Source of the DNA: a virus
IMG/VR virus record: IMGVR_UViG_3300023109_000117
Span: 1 to 26,075 of that record
Strand: one strand, 5' to 3'
DNA length: 26,075 nt
Position 1 is the first letter of the stretch, and each line of letters starts with the position of its first letter. Of this stretch, positions 11,256 through 26,066 are shown piece by piece. The notes below the pieces were generated by a model. It searched no databases. It was given only the letters and a program-made list of their open reading frames with translations, and was not told the DNA's origin. A program made the position numbers and the translations under genes.

Positions 11256-11624
11256 TTACTTCCCCGAAATTTGTGCAAACAGATTATCTGGATCGATCTG
11301 GCTTGCTTTTTCTTCTTCTTTAGAGATAAGATCTGCTAATTTAATTAATTGATCATTTGCTTTGTTCATTCTCTCTATATATTTGGCCATCATAGGACCT
11401 AGAGTAACATGATCAGCTTTGTCACCAGACATTGTTCCGAACACATCTGTGAATAACATGTATGCATTCATCCTGTCAACGATTGCATTTTCATATATTT
11501 CTCTCCAAAGATGTTTCTTTTTGTCTTCAATATTTTCAATCGATTCCAAAAGTGCACCAAATTGCTCTGTCTTTTTGTTGACATCATCAAATGTCATAAT
11601 TGGGTCTTTGTTTTTGTCACTCAT
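11256..11624 (-). CDS. Conserved helical protein of unknown function, 122 aa
   Basis: Almost entirely alpha-helical and charged, with probable coiled-coil segments (KKTEQFGALLESIENIEDKK; YIERMNKANDQLIKLADLIS). Proteins with the pattern YENA-D-MNAYMLFTD followed by MAKYIERMNKANDQLIKLA are, as I recall, common small genes in marine T4-like phages. The size and helical character recall small terminase or assembly factors, but nothing visible establishes this. It overlaps the sigma-factor stop in ATGA, with AAGGAG 11 nt upstream. It sits between the late sigma factor and the spike gene, so late expression is likely. Confidence 0.75.
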   Translation of the reverse strand: MSDKNKDPIMTFDDVNKKTEQFGALLESIENIEDKKKHLWREIYENAIVDRMNAYMLFTDVFGTMSGDKADHVTLGPMMAKYIERMNKANDQLIKLADLISKEEEKASQIDPDNLFAQISGK

Positions 11625-12358
11625 AATATATCAAACTCCTTACCTGAACCATTTAATTGACGATATATACTTCGTATAGAAGACATACAGACCGACAATT
11701 GTTTTGAATTTAATCCTGACATCTCTCTAACATATACGAATATGGCTCTTTTGTTTAAAAAATCAAGTTCGTCTACTTTGTTAAATATCTCTATGATTGC
11801 GTCTACACACTTAATTTCTCGTTCATTACGCACTCTTTTTCTTATTTCGTTAAACAGCTGTCTAATCTCTTCAGTCTTTTCAGCTTTTTCCATCATTGAT
11901 GAAGGAGCTGCTACGTACTGCCCATTTCTGTGGAATAGTGCATCAACATTGATTTCATTGTCTGGATCATCTATTGACACATGTCTAAACTTATGTTTGT
12001 TCTTTTTTCTACTGTGTATTATCAGCCAATGTTTTGCAACAACATTGAAATAAGAAAATGCCCTGTGTCCTTTTGATGCATCAAACTTATGCAGTGTCTC
12101 ATATAAATTAATAACACAATCTTGCTTAAGAATATCTACATTGTCATGCTGTTTATGAAAACCATATACGTAAATTAGATTCTCAGAAAGCTTTTCTAGA
12201 GCTTCTCGTATAATATCTGTATAGAGTTGTTCTTTTTCTTTAGGGCAATCTGAACTGCAAAACTGAACAATTGCATCTTGATGTTCTTTGCGAAAGTACC
12301 CTTTATTCTTTGCTTTGGATTTCCCTCTACGCTTTCTAACTATTTTCTTCTTCGCCAT
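11621..12358 (-). CDS. 55: RNA polymerase sigma factor for late transcription, gp55-like
   Basis: T4 gp55 directs host RNA polymerase to late promoters together with the sliding clamp. Here a very basic N-terminus (MAKKKIVRKRRGKSKAKNKG) leads to YFRKEHQDAIVQF (21-33), as in gp55 proteins. A sigma region 2 core follows at about 72-125 (VDILKQDCVINLYETLHKFD, GHRAFSYFNVVAKHWLIIHSRKKN). The length of 245 aa is slightly above T4 gp55 (185 aa), the excess being mainly N-terminal and about 130-165. The C-terminus ends KEFDIL, an acidic-hydrophobic tail like those that bind sliding clamps. GAGGAGA lies 7-8 nt before the ATG. It overlaps the upstream membrane-protein gene by 23 bp. Confidence 0.88.
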   Translation of the reverse strand: MAKKKIVRKRRGKSKAKNKGYFRKEHQDAIVQFCSSDCPKEKEQLYTDIIREALEKLSENLIYVYGFHKQHDNVDILKQDCVINLYETLHKFDASKGHRAFSYFNVVAKHWLIIHSRKKNKHKFRHVSIDDPDNEINVDALFHRNGQYVAAPSSMMEKAEKTEEIRQLFNEIRKRVRNEREIKCVDAIIEIFNKVDELDFLNKRAIFVYVREMSGLNSKQLSVCMSSIRSIYRQLNGSGKEFDIL

Positions 12359-13777: not shown

Positions 13778-15033
13778 TACATTGCCTCCATCTTATAGCG
13801 ATTATACCGGGTTTTCCACGTTTGGATAGTGTGATCAATCAATTCATCCCATTGATTCACTCTGTTTTCGTAATTAAATTCGTAATTTGCGTAATTTTGC
13901 ACTTTGTCACATAATGCCTTGTAGCTTTTTGGTAACTGTTTGATGTAATACATGTCTAGCATAGCTTCTGATATAGTTTCTACAGATGTGTAGTCTTCTA
14001 GAATATAGGGTATCTGCTGGTTTCCTACCATAGTTTGAAACTCAATCGGTAGAGCAATGCCATTCTGAGTATTGTCTCTATGATCTTGTACCTGTCGAGT
14101 TTGACCTCCTGTCAATGGAGCGATGATAGGAGTTCCAGTCATCATAGATTCTAAAGTTGACAATCCAAAACCTTCACTATGTGATATATTAATCGTAAAA
14201 TCTGATATATTGTAATATTCATTAAGTTGCTCGAATCCAACTCTTTCAGTGCTGAATACTACATTTTCTTGTATACCATAGTGATCTCTCAAAGCTAGAA
14301 GATTTGGGCCCTCTGTATCAAATGGATCAGTATGCATTAACAATATTGCTTTTCTGTGACCTTTTTCCTTTTCAAGCTTATCTAGGAAGAGAGACCAAGC
14401 CCACAATAAATCGTTAGGTCTTTTTCTTCTAGCATTCCTATTAGACCAAAATCCTACGAACCAATCTTGCTTGTTAGGCAACCATTTTCTTTTTGCTTCT
14501 TTAATTTTCTCATCATTCATTTTGAAATACACGTCTTGAGGAATCGAATGAGGCACAAAATGAGTCTTTTCAGGATAATGCTCTACTACTTGCTGGTATG
14601 TGTGATGAGAATGGCAAGCAATTAGATCTGTTCCTTCATAGTACATATCATTGAACTTAGGATACGGCTTGTTATCCCACACATGCCAATATGCAATTGG
14701 ACACACTTGGTGAATTTCATCTTCCATTCTGAACAACCAATGGAAGAATCTAGGATCAGTGAACAATAAGATCATGTCTGGCTTTTCAGTTACTAAAGCA
14801 AGTCGAATCATCTCTGGAGTCCCAAATCCATCTGTTGGTTTGATTATGAAGTCATCATTCACTTTTACTACATTGTAGTTTTCATGCTTCATTGCAGCAC
14901 CAAACTGCCTAATTGTGTACTTTCCAGTGTCAATCAAGCCGTTAATTAAAAATCTGCTTTGTGTACCGACTCCAGATGTGCTCAATGCATGATCTGAGAG
15001 TACTAGTATTTTCTTTTTACCATTGGCCGCCAT
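13777..15033 (-). CDS. Glycosyltransferase, GT4 family, 418 aa
   Basis: A GT-B enzyme. The N-terminal Rossmann half begins KKILVLSDHALSTSGVGTQS (7-26). The C-terminal half has VGFWSNRNARRKRP (193-206), probably contacting the donor phosphates, and SHSEGFGLSTLESMMTGTPI (284-303) with the EX7E pair E287 and E295. FVPHSIP (159-165) is a common GT4 linker. The start overlaps the Cas4-like nuclease gene by 17 bp, with GGAG 7 nt upstream. It probably works in the same pathway as the next GT. The acceptor is unknown: virion protein, host envelope glycan or small molecule are all possible. Confidence 0.88.
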   Translation of the reverse strand: MAANGKKKILVLSDHALSTSGVGTQSRFLINGLIDTGKYTIRQFGAAMKHENYNVVKVNDDFIIKPTDGFGTPEMIRLALVTEKPDMILLFTDPRFFHWLFRMEDEIHQVCPIAYWHVWDNKPYPKFNDMYYEGTDLIACHSHHTYQQVVEHYPEKTHFVPHSIPQDVYFKMNDEKIKEAKRKWLPNKQDWFVGFWSNRNARRKRPNDLLWAWSLFLDKLEKEKGHRKAILLMHTDPFDTEGPNLLALRDHYGIQENVVFSTERVGFEQLNEYYNISDFTINISHSEGFGLSTLESMMTGTPIIAPLTGGQTRQVQDHRDNTQNGIALPIEFQTMVGNQQIPYILEDYTSVETISEAMLDMYYIKQLPKSYKALCDKVQNYANYEFNYENRVNQWDELIDHTIQTWKTRYNRYKMEAM

Positions 15034-15859
15034 TGCAGTGCTCCGAGTTTGCGAAAGGACAGAATCGACATGAAGTGTAATTCTTCATTGCAAAGCCTTT
15101 CTTTACGTTTTTAATCATTGAATCTACCATTTTATCAGCTCTTTCTACAAACTTAGGGCCGACTGACACTGTAAAGATATCCAAGCATTTTTCTTTCTTA
15201 GCTCCACGCTTAAGAAATACGTAAGCACACCTGATATCTTTCAGTTCCACACCTAATTTTCTAGAAATATACCGCTTGTAGAGGCCTACTTGCGATGTTT
15301 TTAAGAAATCTTTTCGTTGTTTTCCAAACCAGCCGGCTTTACCAGTTGTTTTCCAATCAATCACCCACAGAAGGTCTTTTCCTTTCTTGTCTTTGCATCT
15401 AAGAAGACAATCGACAAATCCTTTGAAAGATACATCATCGTGGCCTTCAATAGATTCATATAGTTTATGTTCTGCATCTACTAATTCCCACTCAGGAAAT
15501 TGATTATCTAGCCATTCAGGAAAAGATTCTAAAACATCAGTCGCATATGATTGCCATTCTTCTACTGGAAGATCTTTGTACCACTTATTTGGTTTCATCT
15601 TTTCGAGGTATGCTTCACCCCTGTAATCATTTTCTACCCATTTTTGTACGATTTCTGCATGACAAGTCGGTATATCCATCGTCTTTGTCTTAAGATAGTT
15701 CTCAATCGCATTGTGTACGGCTGTCCCGTAGTCTGCATAAGGGTTTGCTTCATACGAGTCTAATTTGTCTACGTATGCTAGTTTGTGTCTATATGAGCAT
15801 TCTTTCCAGACTTTAACTTCTGAAAAGCTTACATGAGGTTTTCCTGTTGGAAATAACAT
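15017..15859 (-). CDS. Cas4/RecB-like PD-(D/E)XK nuclease with probable Fe-S cluster, 280 aa
   Basis: Nuclease motifs are in order: SFSEVKVWKECSYRHKLAY (11-29), GTAVHNAIE (45-53, H49), E130, FKGFVDCLL with D150, VIDWKTT with D168 and K170, and QVGLYKRY (190-197, the Q-x3-Y motif of RecB nucleases). Four cysteines, C21 and C264/C267/C275 (CRFCPFANSEHC), sit as in the 4Fe-4S cluster of Cas4 and AddB. This predicts a DNA exonuclease acting in recombination or genome processing. The start has GGGAGA 5 nt upstream and its own promoter candidate (15881-15908). No CRISPR or cas1/cas2 is present, so a Cas4 role in adaptation is not supported. Confidence 0.85.
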   Translation of the reverse strand: MLFPTGKPHVSFSEVKVWKECSYRHKLAYVDKLDSYEANPYADYGTAVHNAIENYLKTKTMDIPTCHAEIVQKWVENDYRGEAYLEKMKPNKWYKDLPVEEWQSYATDVLESFPEWLDNQFPEWELVDAEHKLYESIEGHDDVSFKGFVDCLLRCKDKKGKDLLWVIDWKTTGKAGWFGKQRKDFLKTSQVGLYKRYISRKLGVELKDIRCAYVFLKRGAKKEKCLDIFTVSVGPKFVERADKMVDSMIKNVKKGFAMKNYTSCRFCPFANSEHCNGGQW

Positions 15860-15880: not shown

Positions 15881-15908
15881 ATCATAACGAAAAATATGCC
15901 ATTGTACA
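15881..15908 (-). promoter_or_regulatory. Promoter candidate for the Cas4-like nuclease gene
   Basis: On the minus strand TGTACA (15908-15903) is followed after 16 bp by TATGAT (15886-15881). Predicted start is near 15874, leaving a leader of about 15 nt that contains the ribosome site. The spacing is identical to the two plus-strand promoters at 21765 and 24991. The -10 box is half of a perfect 14-bp palindrome, TATGATTAATCATA (15873-15886), which could be an operator. No experimental support. Confidence 0.5.
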
Positions 15909-15910
15909 AA

Positions 15911-18518: not shown

Positions 18519-19760
18519 TTAGATAGATTGAACCATGTACTGCCAAGCAGATCCAGTATACAAAAGAACTAATTTTTGTGAATCACTTACAGAAATTCCA
18601 TCACTGTTACCAGTGGCGGCGGCAATCTGTGCTTGACCTCCAAAAGAATCTATTGCAGTTGTATCTGCTTTGAACCTGAAACCTTTTCCGGCAAGCGCTG
18701 ATATGATTTCATACCTTGCTTTGGTACCGGTCTGATTTAAAGAAGCGGTATTTACCATGAAGCCATCTGCAGCATTCGAGCCAGCAGCATTCTGAGATGA
18801 ATCTGAAACCATCAAAGTGCCACCGGAACCACTGTTTAATTCTGTATGCACAGCTGTATTCCCTGAAAGGGTTTTTGTAGCAAACATTATAATTGGAGCT
18901 GCAGGAACTTGTGCCCATTTAACGCCTGAAGCTTCGGCAGAGTCTGCTGTTAAAACATACGTATTAGTGCCTACTCCTAGAATTGTTGCGTCTCCTGTAC
19001 CATCTCCAACGACAATCTGGCCTTTTGTTGCAAGATCAGTGTGCATAATCGCACCAGCCGCATTTACATTAGTGGCATCAGTTACATCTGCAGAGGTTTC
19101 AATGCCATTAAGTTTCACGAAAAGTTCATCAGACATCACACCCCAGTTAGATGCATCCGCGAGAGGAAGAGCAACGTTGTCACCGGTTGAAGATTCAACT
19201 GTGAGACTTGTTCCGTTTGCGGTTACAGAAAGATTTGTAGCACTACTTCCACCAGAAGCATCGACAATCTTGATTTCACCTTTCATTGCTGCATGTGACG
19301 TACAATAGTAATACATTGTGCTTGGAACATCGTGCATTACATTCCATTCAAGAATGCCACTTGAAACGTTATTGTTTGTAATACCATCTGAATATGCGCC
19401 ACCGCCATCAGAAGATGAAATTCTGAATGGGTGTGCTCCCAAAAGGTTTTCAAATTGGTATTTCTGTCCACGAACAAGATAAATGGTAGGATTTCTATCT
19501 CCAGTATTACTGTTCGCAGTTGCATCAAAGCCTGGTCCGTTGAAAACATAGTGAGTGTCACTGTTGTTCGTGATATATAACTTCGTGATTGGATGGATTG
19601 GAACATCTTTCCAGTTGGTTGCATCTGATTGCTTGAGGGTATCATCACTTGTACTGTATACAAGGTCTCCTGATCCGTATGTATTAGCGTTTTCAGCTCC
19701 ACCACCTGAGGTGACGACTTGCTTTAAACGCTTTTCACTTTTAAGATTTACTATAGCCAT
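18519..19760 (-). CDS. Virion/fibre protein with cupredoxin domain, 413 aa
   Basis: Residues about 57-167 form a cupredoxin-like beta domain (TKLYITNNSDTHYVFNGPGF, LVRGQKYQFEN, GAHPFRISSSDGG, STMYYYCTSHAAMKGEIKIV). The four type-1 copper ligands are all present as H110, C153, H156 and M159; the C-x2-H-x2-M spacing is like amicyanin. The region after 170 has LFVKLNGIETSADVTDATNV and AAGAIMHTDLATKGQIVVGD, repeats typical of marine phage tail fibres. It ends SQKLVLLYTGSAWQYMVQSI. Similar domains occur in marine phage structural proteins as I recall; whether copper is bound is unknown. A terminator follows directly. Confidence 0.8.
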   Translation of the reverse strand: MAIVNLKSEKRLKQVVTSGGGAENANTYGSGDLVYSTSDDTLKQSDATNWKDVPIHPITKLYITNNSDTHYVFNGPGFDATANSNTGDRNPTIYLVRGQKYQFENLLGAHPFRISSSDGGGAYSDGITNNNVSSGILEWNVMHDVPSTMYYYCTSHAAMKGEIKIVDASGGSSATNLSVTANGTSLTVESSTGDNVALPLADASNWGVMSDELFVKLNGIETSADVTDATNVNAAGAIMHTDLATKGQIVVGDGTGDATILGVGTNTYVLTADSAEASGVKWAQVPAAPIIMFATKTLSGNTAVHTELNSGSGGTLMVSDSSQNAAGSNAADGFMVNTASLNQTGTKARYEIISALAGKGFRFKADTTAIDSFGGQAQIAAATGNSDGISVSDSQKLVLLYTGSAWQYMVQSI

Positions 19761-20404: not shown

Positions 20405-21751
20405 CTATAATATATTTGACGCAGTTGTGGCGAGATCAGATCTTTGTCCCTTAGAAAGATTAACATGCGCACACAGAGATGAGTTTTGGAACTTATCAAT
20501 AACTATACTCAAACCAGAGCTCTGTCTATCAATATATGGAGTATCAATCTGATCTACGTCTCCTAGTAAAACAATTTTTGAATTTGTGCCCATTCGAGTG
20601 ATAATTGTTTTCAACTCATGTATCGTAGCATTCTGTGCTTCATCGACAATCAAGAAAGAGTTACTAAAAGTTCTACCTCGAATGTATGGAATCGGAGCAA
20701 TTTCTATGTCTCCTTGGTCAATCATATCTTGAAAATACGAAGTGTCTTTGAATGCATGTCTTACATTGTCCAAGATAGGCATCAACCATGGTTGCATTTT
20801 TTCTTCAAGGGAACCAGGGAGATATCCTAGATCTCGACCAACAGGCTGTAATGTTCTAGAGATAACGATTCTGTCATACCCGATAGAAAATGACTCTATA
20901 ATATCTCTTGGGATCTGTAACCCAACTGTGTTTCCTTTTGGGGTACGACCCGAATTCATCTTCGAAAGAGCCGCCATCAGAGCAAGGAAGGTTTTACCCG
21001 AACCAGCTAGCCCGGTTAAACACACGAGGGGAATTTTTGGATCGAGTAGTGCCTCGATTGCGAACGATTGTTCTGCATTTCTAGGCTCTACAGTGATTAA
21101 TCCATCCATCTTATGCTGCATCTTTCTTATAAAGCCACCTTTGTGTATTCCTAAAAGTGATTGATTTGTTTGTGACTTCCCAATCACAAATTGGTTTTCT
21201 TTTAATTCCTCTGTTGTTCGAACTCTTCCAGAATCATAAAACTCTGCGAAATGATCTGGAGCTAAATCAACTTGTTTCCAGCCACAAAGTGTATCAACAT
21301 CTTCTTCTACTCGATCTTTCAAATAGTCTTCGACAAGAACTCCAACAGCATCACATTTAACTCTGAGATTAATGTCTTTTGTGATAATGTACACTTGTTC
21401 TGCAGACTTGCTAAGGTGTAGGGCACAACCGATAATAATATTGTCATTGTAGCCAATATCAAAACCTTCTGGCACACATTCGTGAATCTCTACACTAAGT
21501 TCGAACCGGTATCGTATGTCATGTAGCTCTTTAGTTCTCCAGCCATCTGAATCAATCGGCGTGCTTCTCATCTCATCTAAGAATCGATTGACGTATCTTG
21601 CATTTTGACCAATGAGACCTTGTCTTTCTTTAAATTTATCTAATTCTTCTAAAACTACTAGAGGAAGAACTATGTCATTGCCTGCAAATGCATGTATTGC
21701 TTGTGCATCGTACAGGAGAACTGAAGTATCTAAGATGAATGTCTTTCGCAT
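20405..21751 (-). CDS. phoH: PIN-PhoH fusion protein (PhoH-like ATPase), 448 aa
   Basis: Residues 4-140 form a PIN ribonuclease-type domain (FILDTSVLLYD with D8, LPLVVLEELDKF with E35/E36, ITKDINLRVKC with D126). From about 225 comes the PhoH ATPase: Walker A GLAGSGKT at 247-254, PVGRDLGYLPGSLEEKMQPW, Walker B FLIVDEAQNA (366-375) and LLGDVDQIDTPY. PIN-PhoH fusions are RNA-acting helicase/nucleases in bacteria, and PhoH is very common in marine phages. I chose the ATG at 21751 with AAAGGA upstream. An in-frame GTG 45 bp earlier lies in the divergent promoter zone and has no ribosome site. Confidence 0.93.
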   Translation of the reverse strand: MRKTFILDTSVLLYDAQAIHAFAGNDIVLPLVVLEELDKFKERQGLIGQNARYVNRFLDEMRSTPIDSDGWRTKELHDIRYRFELSVEIHECVPEGFDIGYNDNIIIGCALHLSKSAEQVYIITKDINLRVKCDAVGVLVEDYLKDRVEEDVDTLCGWKQVDLAPDHFAEFYDSGRVRTTEELKENQFVIGKSQTNQSLLGIHKGGFIRKMQHKMDGLITVEPRNAEQSFAIEALLDPKIPLVCLTGLAGSGKTFLALMAALSKMNSGRTPKGNTVGLQIPRDIIESFSIGYDRIVISRTLQPVGRDLGYLPGSLEEKMQPWLMPILDNVRHAFKDTSYFQDMIDQGDIEIAPIPYIRGRTFSNSFLIVDEAQNATIHELKTIITRMGTNSKIVLLGDVDQIDTPYIDRQSSGLSIVIDKFQNSSLCAHVNLSKGQRSDLATTASNIL

Positions 21752-21764
21752 AAGGTGATCCTTT

Positions 21765-21792
21765 TGTAAAATTAATTTTTGCCCTTTATAAT
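21765..21792 (+). promoter_or_regulatory. Promoter for the plus-strand sigma-region-4-like gene
   Basis: TGTAAA (21765-21770), a 16-bp spacer, and a perfect TATAAT (21787-21792). Read as TTGTAA from 21764 it gives a sigma70-type -35 with a 17-bp spacer. The predicted start is near 21799, and AAGGAG (21803-21808) sits 5 nt before the ATG. It shares TGTAmAA...TTAATTT and its geometry with the promoter at 24991-25018. Confidence 0.65.
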
Positions 21793-21813: not shown

Positions 21814-22056
21814 ATGAGTAATAAAAACGAAACTTGTTGGGAAGCCAACAAAAATAATGACAAACCATGCCAAAACAAGGAATGTCGACTATGGCTTAAG
21901 TGTGAAGCCAAACAAAATTGTACGATCATAGCAGCGCAAGACGGCCCTCTTACTTTACAGAAGATTGGGAATTTACATGAATTAACTCGCATGCGTATTT
22001 GCCAGGTTGAAAAGGAGGCCATGAGAAAAATTAGAGAATTTATCTTAGGCACATGA
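21814..22056 (+). CDS. Cys-rich sigma-region-4-like DNA-binding regulator, 80 aa
   Basis: Residues about 45-77 (PLTLQKIGNLHELTRMRICQ then VEKEAMRKIREF) match the helix-turn-helix of sigma70 region 4, which reads -35 elements. The N-terminal half has cysteines C8, C19, C24, C30 and C36 (KPCQNKECRLWLKC), a possible zinc-binding module. Such small Cys-head/HTH proteins are, as I recall, widespread in marine phages, but their role is not settled. It stands alone on the plus strand, diverging from PhoH, with its own strong promoter and a terminator after it. This fits an early transcription regulator, possibly redirecting host RNA polymerase. Confidence 0.8.
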   Translation: MSNKNETCWEANKNNDKPCQNKECRLWLKCEAKQNCTIIAAQDGPLTLQKIGNLHELTRMRICQVEKEAMRKIREFILGT

Positions 22057-22132: not shown

Positions 22133-22333
22133 TTACTTATCAGCTTTACGTGCCTTATCGCTTTCAACTGTGATTTTCACAAGTTCTGCGGCTTGATTTT
22201 TTAAAAGTCGAAGACCTTTTCGTGCACGTACTCCGGCAGAAACGTTTCCAGCCGCATTTTTGTGGACGTCCAGATCGATACTCTCAATCAGAGTCTTAAT
22301 TTCTTGCCACTTGTCAGTGATATCGTTACTCAT
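22133..22333 (-). CDS. Histone H1-like (Hc1-like) basic protein, 66 aa
   Basis: The sequence DKWQEIKTLIESIDLDVHKN, then AAGNVSAGVRARKGLRLLKN and QAAELVKITVE, follows the pattern of bacterial Hc1/histone-H1-like proteins, in which a helix leads into GNKAAGTRVRKGLQELKNLA. Those proteins bind and compact DNA. It is lysine/arginine-rich in the C-terminal half and ends KARKADK. AGGAGAG is 6 nt before the ATG. It is the last gene before the bidirectional terminator. DNA or RNA binding is inferred from the family pattern; another small basic phage protein is the alternative. Confidence 0.6.
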   Translation of the reverse strand: MSNDITDKWQEIKTLIESIDLDVHKNAAGNVSAGVRARKGLRLLKNQAAELVKITVESDKARKADK

Positions 22334-22335
22334 AA

Positions 22336-22569
22336 TTACTCTCCTGTAATGATGTTGGATTTAGTCCCTTTGCGAGACTGGTTAATTGTATTTGTCAAAT
22401 CTTTCATAAGATTGACATTTTCAAGCTCCATCGAAAAAAGATAGATTATTTGCTCGATTTGTTGTTGGTTCACTCCATACTGAAGGACTGATTGGACAAT
22501 TTCTCTAGCTTTGATCTTGTCTTCAATCTTTTCTTCTTCTATAGAAGTTCCAAATGCTTTTGTTTTCAT
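22336..22569 (-). CDS. Small conserved phage protein of unknown function, 77 aa
   Basis: Begins MKTKAFGTSIEEEKIEDKIK and continues with helical sequence (AREIVQSVLQYGVNQQQIEQ then IIYLFSMELENVNLMKDLTN). I recall small marine phage genes with the same KTKAFG start and MELEN core, none with a known function. No TM or metal-binding motif is visible. The start overlaps the upstream stop in ATGA and the stop lies 2 bp before the histone-like gene, so all three are probably translated together. The protein looks soluble and fully helical. Confidence 0.75.
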   Translation of the reverse strand: MKTKAFGTSIEEEKIEDKIKAREIVQSVLQYGVNQQQIEQIIYLFSMELENVNLMKDLTNTINQSRKGTKSNIITGE

Positions 22570-23027
22570 ACAGTCCTCTTTTGCAAAAATGGTTCCAACC
22601 TATAATTTCCTGGACCATTGAATCTTAAGATTTTACCAGTCAGATCACCTGCTTCGGTTTCTTCTCGGTGTATAATAATAAAGTCACCCCATTTTTCATT
22701 TTGTAAAATAAATAGCGCGTGTTCCCAATCAGGGACATCGCAACCGTACGTATCTAGAACCTGTTTGACTCCAGCTGGTAACATAAGGCCACAATCTTCT
22801 ATAGTCATGACTGCTCCTACTTCTTGACCTGCTTGTATTTCCGATTTGCATATATCCAACACATTGTGAATCACTCCACAGTTATTGCATCTAGCATGTT
22901 TTGGGATTGCAGTATCTGATTTGTCAAACAAAGAAAAAACCACAAATGAGTGATACGGTGGATTCTTTCGTTTTCTAAATTGCGGTAGCACACAATGGCA
23001 TTCTACTAAATGTTTCAATCCTTTCAT
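22566..23027 (-). CDS. Conserved Cys-containing protein of unknown function, 153 aa
   Basis: Begins MKGLKHLVECHCVLPQFRKR; residues 47-54 hold CNNCGVIH, a CxxC zinc-knuckle pattern, with a further CHC at 10-12, so one metal site is likely. The middle has VGAVMTIEDCGLMLPAGVKQ and VPDWEHALFILQNEKWGDFI. I recognise this layout (HLVECHCILPQ, CNNCG, YGCD, WE-A) from marine T4-like phages, where it is annotated only as hypothetical. GAGGA precedes the ATG by 5 nt. It is the first gene of a tight three-gene group ending at the bidirectional terminator. Confidence 0.78.
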   Translation of the reverse strand: MKGLKHLVECHCVLPQFRKRKNPPYHSFVVFSLFDKSDTAIPKHARCNNCGVIHNVLDICKSEIQAGQEVGAVMTIEDCGLMLPAGVKQVLDTYGCDVPDWEHALFILQNEKWGDFIIIHREETEAGDLTGKILRFNGPGNYRLEPFLQKRTV

Positions 23028-23082
23028 ACGTTCCTCACAGACATTAATTATGTGTGGTAAGTGAGAATCGTAAAATTATTTT

Positions 23083-23523: not shown

Positions 23524-24727
23524 TGTCAACCCCTACCAGAAAGCCACCAATATTAACTATCTTATCTTTAAGAGACTGTGATGTTTCTTTGGCAGCTCTT
23601 GCAAAAGAGCTAGGTATTTCCCCAACTGATGTGTTTACTGTTCCGCTCGTTACAAATCCGTTGTAGTGCTTTATAAGAGAATCCAATTCTTCTAGTACTT
23701 GTTCATTATTTCTGTTGATCCAAACTTCGATTGCATCATTAGAAAGTGATAAAATTCTATCTCGATATATTTTTTGCACTTCATCTTCTTCAATCGTTTT
23801 CATCTTTTGAATTAAATTAGCAACATGTCTCGAAACATCCACTTCTTTTTGCAAAGATAAAATTCCATTTGACCATTCAACTCTTTCAACTTCGCCCCAC
23901 TTATCTTCGTTGAGTACTGATGCAGATATAATATCCCCAAAGTGTGCACTAATGAGCTCTCCTTTCGATATAGCACACATGTCAGCCGCTAGATTGATTG
24001 ATTCGATTGATGTCCCGTACGGTATCGGAAGTACGCTTAAAGAGCCTCTGAGCCAATTTGTAGCCAATGTAGCTGATATCTCTTCTGGAAATGATCTTGC
24101 TATCAAAAGTACAGGTCTTTGTTGCTCATGGTTCCATTGCAATAGGGAATTAATTTCTCCGATTGTCTCCGGAGAACCTTCGATCATAATCACAATTGGA
24201 TTAGTCTGCTCTATTAAGTCTGTGTGGCCTATCATTTTGTGGAATTGTGCATCAAGACCCAAAGGGAATGAAAATGCATTCCTATACTTGATTACATTTT
24301 CAGTTTCGTAGGACTTTTTAATAATAATTTTTGTCAAAGGCCCTACAATTTCGTATATTGACTTAAACAATTGTTTGACTTCTTGATTGTAAGACAAACC
24401 AAGTGTTGACTCTAGATAATCAGCTGATGATTTTCTAGTTTGACTGTGTATGTAATCTTCAAAAAGAAACAAAGGAACATACACACCAGATCCAGGAGCA
24501 GATGCATCTGCAGACATCATGGCATCCAATATTAGATTTCTAAGAATTAATTCTTTATTGGAAAACTTATGTCCTAATATCCATTTTGTCATTCTCAAAT
24601 GGGAAACTTTATGAATGTCTGAAGTGACAAAATGTTTCTCTGTATGATACAGATCCACTAATGATTTACACCACTGAATCCAATCTGTTTCGGTTGAAAC
24701 TTTTTCAAATTTAGTCTTTATTGACAT
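23504..24727 (-). CDS. Reduced GroEL-like chaperonin without a canonical ATP site, 407 aa
   Basis: Residues about 176-293 line up with the GroEL apical domain almost without gaps: PIVIMIEGSPETIGEINSLL, then RPVLLIARSFPEEISATLAT and NWLRGSLSVLPIPYG, ending IISASVLNEDKWGEVERVEW. In GroEL the same places read [20 protein letters not shown] and [20 protein letters not shown]. Residues 300-350 resemble the intermediate domain. The GroEL ATP motif GDGTT would fall at 77-81, where this protein has APGSG. The C-terminal equatorial part is only about 45 residues (about 130 in GroEL). It may be a non-ATPase scaffold or client-binding protein. The comparison is from memory, by eye. AAAGGA lies 8 nt before the ATG. 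Confidence 0.65.
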   Translation of the reverse strand: MSIKTKFEKVSTETDWIQWCKSLVDLYHTEKHFVTSDIHKVSHLRMTKWILGHKFSNKELILRNLILDAMMSADASAPGSGVYVPLFLFEDYIHSQTRKSSADYLESTLGLSYNQEVKQLFKSIYEIVGPLTKIIIKKSYETENVIKYRNAFSFPLGLDAQFHKMIGHTDLIEQTNPIVIMIEGSPETIGEINSLLQWNHEQQRPVLLIARSFPEEISATLATNWLRGSLSVLPIPYGTSIESINLAADMCAISKGELISAHFGDIISASVLNEDKWGEVERVEWSNGILSLQKEVDVSRHVANLIQKMKTIEEDEVQKIYRDRILSLSNDAIEVWINRNNEQVLEELDSLIKHYNGFVTSGTVNTSVGEIPSSFARAAKETSQSLKDKIVNIGGFLVGVDNEMVAG

Positions 24728-24938
24728 TGAATAATCCTTTTAAGACTTCACTAGCCTCCTCTACAGAACTATTTAAAGATTCAGCCTTCTTTATTTTTTC
24801 ACTATAAGCCATCACATAATCTATAATTCTAGCTGCAACAGCTAATGAGAAAGACAAGATAGAAAATCCAAAAGACTGAGGATATATCATCAAAGAAAAG
24901 ATAACTAAAATTTCAGGCATACCTATTTTAATATTCAT
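24711..24938 (-). CDS. Small membrane protein with one or two TM helices, 75 aa
   Basis: Two hydrophobic stretches, about 8-20 (PEILVIFSLMIYP) and 22-45 (SFGFSILSFSLAVAARIIDY), could be a membrane hairpin or one long helix. A charged helical tail follows (SEKIKKAESLNSSVEEASEV). GGAG is 6 nt before the ATG. The stop overlaps the chaperonin-like start by 17 bp, so the two are probably coupled and lead the block that runs to the terminator at 22081. I recognise no family. The size would allow a holin-like role, but nothing else supports that. Confidence 0.7.
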   Translation of the reverse strand: MNIKIGMPEILVIFSLMIYPQSFGFSILSFSLAVAARIIDYVMAYSEKIKKAESLNSSVEEASEVLKGLFNVNKD

Positions 24939-24967: not shown

Positions 24968-24997
24968 ATTCTACCTTTCGGAACTAGTAATGTACAA
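24968..24997 (-). promoter_or_regulatory. Weak promoter candidate for the minus-strand block led by the 75-aa gene
   Basis: On the minus strand TGTACA (palindromic, shared with the plus-strand promoter) is followed after 17 bp by TAGAAT (24973-24968), about 30 bp before the ATG at 24938. Both directions would use the same upstream box. The spacer is one base longer than in the three better matches. Confidence 0.3.
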
Positions 24998-25018
24998 ATT
25001 AATTTATGAAATTATAAT
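24991..25018 (+). promoter_or_regulatory. Promoter for the GIY-YIG gene, possibly leaderless
   Basis: TGTACA (24991-24996), a 16-bp spacer and a perfect TATAAT (25013-25018). A start 7 nt downstream would be 25025, the A of the gene's ATG. No ribosome site is visible between the -10 box and the ATG. Confidence 0.6.
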
Positions 25019-25024
25019 ATACTT

Positions 25025-25273
25025 ATGAATAAATGGTACGTATATATAGTCGAGTGTGCAGATGGAAGTCTCTACACTGGGATATCCACAGATGTCGATA
25101 GAAGGCTTCTAGAACATAATTTTTCTTTCAAAGCAGCAAAATATACTAGGTCTAGACGTCCTGTTAGACTAGTCTGGTCCAAAGAGGTGCCAAACAGGTC
25201 AGTAGCTTCAAAAGAAGAATACAGGATCAAACGATTGAAAAGGAAACAGAAGTTAGAATTAATTAATAATTAA
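25025..25273 (+). CDS. GIY-YIG endonuclease domain protein, YhbQ/UPF0213-like, 82 aa
   Basis: The GIY-YIG core is complete: YVYIVECADGSLYTGISTDV (5-24) with the YVY and YTG elements, R26/R27, then RRPVRLVWSKEVPNRSVASK and EEYRIKRLKRKQKLELI, with E64/E65 as the probable metal ligand. The second half matches the E. coli YhbQ/UPF0213 pattern ([22 protein letters not shown]) as I recall it. Such single-domain proteins cleave or repair DNA. It is a lone plus-strand gene with no ribosome site before the ATG. Its stop overlaps the convergent gene's stop at TTAA (25270-25273). Capture from a host or homing element is possible. Confidence 0.87.
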   Translation: MNKWYVYIVECADGSLYTGISTDVDRRLLEHNFSFKAAKYTRSRRPVRLVWSKEVPNRSVASKEEYRIKRLKRKQKLELINN

Positions 25274-25788
25274 CCTTCACCCATTTCCATCATCTCAACT
25301 TCCATAATCCAGTCATTCAAAGAATCAAACACTTCATGGATTTCAGAATCAACAGAGTAGCAAGTTTCTTGCCATTTATCTCTCCACTTTCTAGGGGCTT
25401 TCATTTCAAACCTGAACTCTCCGTAGTCGTTTGTCACTACAACTACCATATCGCCGGACTTAATTTTGATCACGTTTGTGTTATTGGTAGCCTCTACATC
25501 CATCCAATCACCAATTTCATGGTCTTCTAAACAATCAGCCACTTGTCTAATAACATCGCCCATGATTCCTCTCTTTCTTGAAGAGGATGGCTTGGTACTA
25601 TAGTCCCAATTAGGGTCGAACCCAATTGTGCCACCGTCCATTCCTATTCCAATCATCCTTTCCCTGTTCTGTGATTGTCTAATAACGTCAGCATCATTCT
25701 CGCCATATTCTCTAATAAGGCCTTTTCTTTTCAATTTAGAGTACTCTTCTCGAATAATTCTTTTGAGTTGTCTTTTTGTAATTTTCAT
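25270..25788 (-). CDS. Hypothetical protein with MKITKRQLKRIIREE tag, 172 aa
   Basis: The first 15 residues are identical to those of the gene at 25821-26066. A linker follows (YSKLKRKGLIREYGENDADV, IRQSQNRERM), then a Gly/Asp-rich segment. The folded C-terminal part (about 78-172) contains MGDVIRQVADCLEDHEIGDW, VIKIKSGDMVVVVTNDYGEF and RFEMKAPRKWRDKWQETCYS, ending in an acidic Met/Glu-rich helix. No known domain is recognised. AGGAG is 7 nt before the ATG. The tag resembles a targeting peptide, with I-R-E in the position of a T4 prohead-protease site. Confidence 0.8.
   Translation of the reverse strand: MKITKRQLKRIIREEYSKLKRKGLIREYGENDADVIRQSQNRERMIGIGMDGGTIGFDPNWDYSTKPSSSRKRGIMGDVIRQVADCLEDHEIGDWMDVEATNNTNVIKIKSGDMVVVVTNDYGEFRFEMKAPRKWRDKWQETCYSVDSEIHEVFDSLNDWIMEVEMMEMGEG
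25745..25788 (-). repeat. Copy 1 of 44-bp repeat encoding the N-terminal tag
   Basis: Encodes MKITKRQLKRIIRE and part of the next codon at the start of the 172-aa gene. It matches copy 2 (26023-26066) at 41 of 44 bases. All three differences are synonymous (Leu CTC/CTT, and Ile ATT/ATC with Arg CGA/AGA). Similarity stops abruptly after the tag. Confidence 0.85.
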
Positions 25789-25820: not shown

Positions 25821-26066
25821 TCATCTTGAACTTTTCATTTGTCTATCAGCTTCATAGATTCCATATAATACATCTATTAATTCTTTGAGCTCATTGATTG
25901 GAAATTCAATTATTTGATTATCATTCAGTTGAGTGATCTGAACTGTACCGTCGTCTAAGCTTTGTGCATATAAAGAGTCTGTCTCACCTTCGGGGCCATA
26001 GGATTCTATTAATTTTTGTTTTTCTTCTCTGATAATTCTTTTAAGTTGTCTTTTTGTAATTTTCAT
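25821..26066 (-). CDS. Hypothetical protein with MKITKRQLKRIIREE tag, 81 aa
   Basis: Starts with the same 15-residue tag as the 172-aa protein. A basic stretch then leads to YGPEGETDSLYAQSLDDGTV, QITQLNDNQIIEFPINELKE and LIDVLYGIYEADRQMKSSR, a small beta strand plus C-terminal helix. The upstream region is mostly outside the window; only GAGAC is seen before the ATG. I know of many marine phage genes that begin with this tag, but not its function. It lies 32 bp upstream of the other tagged gene, so the two are probably co-transcribed. Confidence 0.8.
   Translation of the reverse strand: MKITKRQLKRIIREEKQKLIESYGPEGETDSLYAQSLDDGTVQITQLNDNQIIEFPINELKELIDVLYGIYEADRQMKSSR
26023..26066 (-). repeat. 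Copy 2 of 44-bp repeat encoding the N-terminal tag
   Basis: Same 44-bp segment as 25745-25788 at the start of the 81-aa gene, with three synonymous differences. See copy 1 for what it encodes. Confidence 0.85.

Follow-up and report, generated by a model that had tools for sequence, protein, structure and literature searches.

Comparative sequence analysis confirms that three sites in the 26,075-nt stretch of viral DNA considered here (the window) belong to a real class of predicted promoters carried by large, mostly marine uncultured jumbo phages. In each of them, TGTAMA is joined to TATRAT across a spacer of 16 bases (motif 1; Table 1). We believe that a split phage sigma factor, working on host RNA polymerase, may well be the reader of these promoters, without going so far as to call this probable. 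Slightly more tentative is our broader proposal that in widespread uncultured jumbo phages a sigma factor spanning regions 1.2 to 4.1 would join a distant, Cys-rich region 4.2 to yield a new TTG-N-AMA specificity, driving replication and transcription genes.

The three exact matches lie where the preliminary description of this DNA had placed them, on the same strands and with the common N16 spacing. The downstream genes are also as it had named them, judging from their Pfam matches, and all three sites fall in gaps between genes, given that phoH starts at the ATG at 21751. Shuffled windows contained 0.09 matches to TGTAMA-N16-TATRAT on average and never three, although this expectation is post hoc because the pattern had been fitted to these very sites; allowing one mismatch added just one further site in the window. 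Since the pattern had been written around the three sites, it was tested on unseen sequence of relatives, six of which, close or moderate, were obtained from PhoH and sigR4 searches in IMG/VR. Two of the relatives, G003 (288.7 kb) and G007 (273.0 kb), are uncultured jumbo phages with genes nearly all on one strand. An out-of-sample weight matrix built from these two genomes alone and then applied to the window placed the three sites at ranks 1, 2 and 3 among all window positions, with scores of 15.5, 12.3 and 11.8, the next position scoring 11.0.

Table 1. Predicted promoters, promoter-like elements and associated genes in the window.
Feature	Position	Strand	Details
Predicted promoter of sigR4 gene	21764..21792	+	tTGTAAA-N16-TATAAT; top-scoring window site; core match 21765-21792 TGTAAAATTAATTTTTGCCCTTTATAAT
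Predicted promoter of GIY-YIG gene	24990..25018	+	TGTACA-N16-TATAAT; core match 24991-25018 TGTACAAATTAATTTATGAAATTATAAT
Predicted promoter of PD-(D/E)XK nuclease gene	15881..15909	-	TTGTACA-N16-TATGAT; core match 15908-15881 TGTACAATGGCATATTTTTCGTTATGAT
Possible divergent promoter	24968..24996	-	TGTACA-N17-TAGAAT, toward gene 24711-24938; -35 is the same palindromic TGTACA
Late-type element (other promoter class)	23045..23052	-	CATAATTA; 18 nt 5' of gene 22566-23027
sigR4, 80-aa Cys-rich protein with sigma region 4.2	21814..22056	+	Pfam PF04545 positions 18-50, E 8.7e-8
GIY-YIG nuclease, 82 aa	25025..25273	+	PF01541, E 2.7e-18
PD-(D/E)XK (RecB/Cas4-like) nuclease	15017..15859	-	PF12705, E 1.1e-26; PHROG exonuclease
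gp55-like late sigma, farther down the operon headed by the 15908 promoter	11621..12358	-	phrog_234 E 9e-4; Pfam Sigma70_r2 E 0.013
PhoH-like protein, divergent from sigR4	20405..21751	-	PF02562 and PIN_4

The sigR4 gene is oriented opposite to nearly all other genes and diverges from phoH. Its promoter position is kept in the five relatives that hold the gap and also in the contig L209, with variants such as CGTACA...TACAAT (G007) and TGTAAA...TAAAAT (G003). The promoter at 15908 is identical in G006, a match that is not independent because the two phages are near-identical at that locus; it heads a tight minus-strand run of genes for the PD-(D/E)XK nuclease, glycosyltransferases, the gp55-like protein and baseplate proteins. 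At the GIY-YIG locus the -10 box ends 7 nt 5' of the ATG in the window and in G001, G002 and G004, with six differing bases in between. With a transcript start expected 7 nt downstream of the box, the message is probably leaderless (window 25019-25025), an arrangement kept in the four phages. In the same four, TAGAAT stands on the other strand 16 or 17 bases from TGTACA; as TGTACA is palindromic, this one box may serve two divergent promoters. Adjoining the sigR4 gene, 22133-22333 (-) encodes a highly conserved (up to 100%) 66-aa histone H1/Hc1-like protein (PF07432, E 6.7e-9). Two small proteins of the window, 25270-25788 and 25821-26066 (-), begin with a tag like MKITKRQLKRIIREE; such N-terminal tags, of ~20-30 residues and up to 90% identical, occur in many genes of G003 and G007 and are common to dozens of small proteins otherwise unrelated.

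In G003 and G007 the pattern TGTAMA-N16-TATRAT has 12 and 13 matches, respectively, and none in the reversed control. When the spacer was varied from 10 to 23 bases over five contigs, 33 matches were found at 16 and 0-3 at every other length. The intergenic enrichment that the preliminary description had proposed as a check is present: the -10 box is intergenic in 17 of the 25 matches in the two genomes, compared with 5.5% intergenic sequence (p 3e-16). Many of the sites lie 20-33 nt 5' of a start codon. The matches combine a -35 and a -10 element at fixed spacing, upstream of genes and on the gene strand. Expectation-maximisation blind to the pattern, run after trimming Shine-Dalgarno boxes, returned tTGTAaa-N16-TATaaT as the best or second-best motif in each of the two genomes; on untrimmed upstream regions, motif discovery found the Shine-Dalgarno GGAG alone. 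In the motif fit at full width, the spacer contributed little information. The TTAATTT noted earlier in the two plus-strand spacers is real, but its conservation does not extend beyond direct orthologues of the two sites concerned, and as a part of the motif it was rejected as not general.

The full -35 box reads tTGTAMA, in which the TTG of TTGACA stands at its normal distance from the -10 and the second half is shifted by one base. TTGACA-N17-TATRAT had a single match in the same five contigs, and the consensus TTGACA is thus not the -35 of this class. The earlier suggestion that TGTA replaces the host -35 is right insofar as the host-type combination is nearly absent, but it overlooks that tTGTAMA keeps the TTG in place; this register would make weak reading by host sigma70 possible.

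Genes downstream of motif 1 (51 scanned in G003 and G007) include matches to UvsX/RecA, gp32 SSB, DnaB-type helicase and clamp loader, as well as 5'-3' exonuclease, thymidylate synthase, DNA methyltransferase, Hsp20 and the phage sigma itself, with one baseplate-hub homologue as the exception. In the remaining upstream regions of these two genomes a different element, cATAnTTA, predominates, and portal gp20, tail sheath, baseplate gp25, neck and spanin are among the matches of its genes (68 scanned). The two elements tend not to occur together (Fisher p 0.002 in G003, likewise in G007). The cATAnTTA class consists of a -10 only, differs from T4 TATAAATA, and is also seen upstream of window gene 18519-19760 (-). 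A gp55-like protein is encoded, with weak family matches (Table 1) in a gene conserved in G003, G006 and G007, which makes it plausible that cATAnTTA marks a late class; probably it is the late class of this gp55-like sigma. With a separate class at portal, sheath and baseplate genes, motif 1 looks like an early or middle class beside it, a timing read from gene function only. The preliminary description's idea of a promoter class is thereby borne out, the sites being intergenic, fixed in spacing, mostly ahead of genes with nucleic-acid functions and separate from the class found at structural genes. Its remark that the motif does not precede structural genes holds for the proximal gene, but not for the run from 15908, which reaches baseplate genes, nor for the baseplate-hub homologue.

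What could read such a box? The preliminary description drew no line from the motif to a split sigma. G003 and G007 encode RpoD-like sigma factors of 245 and 233 aa, in which regions 1.2, 2 and 3 are present together with just the start of region 4, the proteins ending after RLRFGI. A continuation with region 4.2 was looked for in the other frames behind these two genes, and none was found, the space being taken by the ORF of another protein, A8. A profile search brought up the sigma in 139 relatives, and in all of the best 80 it stops inside region 4, ~5-40 residues past R[LM]RFG, two of these ends (L186 and L192), which lack the exact motif, having been judged by inspection. The missing segment is matched by sigR4: the G003 sigma covers positions 1-18 of the 50 of Sigma70_r4 and sigR4 proteins cover 16/18-50, and on Staphylococcus aureus SigA (8x6f) the sigma profile (A7) spans 99-327 and the sigR4 profile (A6) 326-356. 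The latter profile matches SigA region 4 with E 7e-8, identifying a region 4.2 helix-turn-helix at the level of sequence, and the two proteins jointly cover regions 2 to 4, as expected of a split sigma. Motif-1 promoters stand at both genes in G003 and G007. The two genes are about 50-180 kb apart, so that fragments hold one of the two only; both are present on 8 of 9 sigma-bearing contigs of at least 200 kb and on 1 of 38 shorter ones. The window is such a fragment, without a sigma gene, and for this phage we infer the sigma from its relatives.

In the sigR4 alignment (A6), for which 80 of 200 loci were retained, five cysteines are invariant (C8, C19, C24, C36, C63) and there is a helix TRMRICQ.EK, of which TRMRICQ is kept in 80 of the 80, a count partly due to the search pattern itself. 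The -35 element is read by sigma region 4.2, and the recognition helix of Escherichia coli sigma70 is TRERIRQIE. Compared with it, TRMRICQ[IV]E of sigR4 is changed at two recognition-helix positions, which we consider a lead as to the -35 specificity. The near invariance of this helix counts against the split-sigma case. AlphaFold2 single-chain models gave pLDDT 89.7 for sigR4 and 85.9 for the sigma; the sigma model matches SigA structurally (E 2.5e-15), and for sigR4 the model's top Foldseek matches are chains of sigma region 4, all with E above 1. A search for multisubunit RNA polymerase genes found none, and a phage-encoded multisubunit polymerase as reader of the motif was rejected for want of an Rpb2-type gene. 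No match to sigR4 was found by tblastn in 50,697 phage records. MaAM05 and MD-2021a, deposited phage records with RpoD matches, were discarded as cultured relatives: at about 358 and 628 aa, the sigma frames exceed the truncated phage sigma in length, and the genes around them look bacterial.

Over a wider sample, GTA[AC]A-N16-TAnnnT stands upstream of the sigR4 gene in 24 of 61 non-redundant relatives, compared with 0-6 when the spacing is changed and 0-2 when the other strand is read. Four further phages with the split sigma (G008, G009, G027 and G049) have TGTAMA-N16 at 6-7 genes each, their reversed controls giving about one or fewer. G075 uses TGCAMA-N17 as its -35, at 26 genes as against 0.4 in the control. 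In G075 (L262-L271) a GGTGCAAAG repeat occurs at many gene starts with TATAMT 17 bases on, a lineage-specific version of the promoter. Among other phages carrying both proteins the box is weak in G023 (TGAACA-N16) and G060 (GTGYA) and indistinct in G052, which tells against the split-sigma reading. The form common to the -35 across split-sigma phages is TTG-N-AMA. G008 and G009 also contain an intergenic repeat family, TTCTGTAAAAAA...TGGTATAATactactataagg, whose copies, about ten of them in G008, are near-identical and have an -10 of the extended type (TGGTATAAT); their TGTAAA-N18, taken as a lineage variant, was not counted toward N16. In KVP40, P-SSM2, T4 and AR9 (50 kb each, 200 kb in total) motif 1 was found at 0-1 genes. 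The host control was one 2-Mb metagenome bin in which a 306-kb contig comes from a phage of this family; that contig accounts for 7 of the bin's 8 motif matches. The contig, L209 (NHDW01000006.1), is filed under 'Methylococcaceae bacterium TMED69' and looks like a mis-binned jumbo phage of the family, the order of phoH, sigR4 and their neighbours being the same.

According to our proposal, the sites would form one promoter class of host-polymerase-dependent jumbo phages, used ahead of the late class for genes of replication, recombination and transcription. The truncated sigma would bind host core polymerase and open the TATAAT box, while sigR4 would dock at the flap, replacing the missing half-domain, and read TTGTAMA. 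Weak reading by host sigma70 would start the system, and because both sigma parts are under motif-1 promoters in the relatives, a feedback loop would result. The main rival, which we consider rather unlikely yet worth serious attention, is that the unmodified host sigma70 holoenzyme reads these sites as ordinary early promoters, TTGTAMA being the local look of a host or phage -35, and that the promoters served by the truncated sigma and sigR4 are of another class. The -10 is after all a plain sigma70 box, the TTG of TTGTAMA sits exactly at the TTG position of TTGACA-N17, and, as the promoters of the sigma parts belong to motif 1, some reader is needed first. Against this stand the imbalance between TTGACA-N17-TATRAT and motif 1 (1 versus 33), the concentration of matches on the phage contig within the 2-Mb bin, and a spacing stricter than sigma70 usually needs; T4 early promoters, by contrast, fit sigma70 well (PMC2988021). 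That the class is a chance pattern, fitted post hoc in an AT-rich genome, is scarcely credible: the degenerate pattern was indeed chosen around three sites and gains one more when a mismatch is allowed, but the out-of-sample matrix ranks, the blind discovery in two genomes and the strict spacing refute it.

Two other readers deserve mention. A8, an HTH-like protein and the foremost alternative to sigR4 as partner of the truncated sigma, might read the -35 box, either as one half of a split sigma or in the role of an activator, which we regard as improbable. It is present in all 80 sigma loci (the best 80 of 139), directly downstream in 75 with a short gap or none, and a few of its members weakly match Sigma70_r4_2; however, it is not significantly related to either sigma region 4 or sigR4, no clear relation to known families was found, and the sequence match to the missing segment belongs to sigR4. 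A8 is conserved over 90 aa (MSMPKG.K...GYATV...YREIAEKMT..G.KMNHSTARNVFL.AM.K; for example L129:3741-4013 and L039:8548-8820). Still less probable, by a clear step, is an appropriation of the T4 kind, with an AsiA-like protein remodelling host sigma70 and a MotA-like activator reading the box. T4 middle promoters, where the MotA box takes the place of the -35 (PMC2988021), do resemble motif 1 in joining a host-type -10 to a phage element at replication, recombination and transcription genes, and T4 likewise has a separate late class with a gp55-type sigma. The MotA box, however, is TGCTTtA at 12 +/- 1 bp from the -10, in place of tTGTAMA at 16, and unlike T4 middle transcription the present system includes a truncated sigma along with a region 4.2 protein encoded by the phage. 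AsiA and MotA gave no Pfam match in six genomes, where the positive control was also silent.

The split sigma that we favour has partial likenesses elsewhere. T4 late gp55 is a sigma-like protein without region 4, and gp33 is a separate flap-binding protein, so that a sigma lacking region 4 with a separate flap partner has a counterpart there; gp33 is not known to be homologous in sequence to region 4, nor are T4 late promoters known to have a -35. The late role of T4 gp55 seems here to be that of the gp55-like protein and the cATAnTTA class. Late promoters of phage 7-11, GTAAtg-(16)-aCTA, are read by the phage sigma gp47 (PMC8948821); they are alike in having two elements, a GTAA-type -35, a 16-base spacer and a phage sigma on host core. 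They differ in serving late genes, in having a -10 other than TATAAT and in being read by a single-polypeptide sigma that brings its own region 4. SigO-RsoA of Bacillus subtilis is a two-subunit sigma with region-2 and region-4 functions on separate polypeptides (PMC8103513), but it is bacterial and divided between domains 2 and 4, whereas the RpoD-like phage sigma is cut between 4.1 and 4.2. A search of open-licence full text found no paper on a split phage sigma. For group 2 jumbo phages without RNAP, the text of Iyer et al. (2021, PMC7824862) considered here describes a 'minimal' single-HTH sigma and a fuller RpoD-like sigma, probably the same as, or related to, sigR4 and the truncated sigma. 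That text treats them as two alternative types, without mention of the missing region 4.2, of complementary halves or of a promoter.

The present work offers a computed promoter map and a candidate sigma for a large phage group in which we found no cultured member. If the split-sigma proposal is true, an RpoD-like sigma would be divisible inside the very domain that reads the -35, a point of relevance to the redirection of host polymerase by phages, and an orthogonal two-part sigma with its promoter set would be on offer. The 'minimal' and 'complete' sigmas of jumbo phages would then be joined into one machine.
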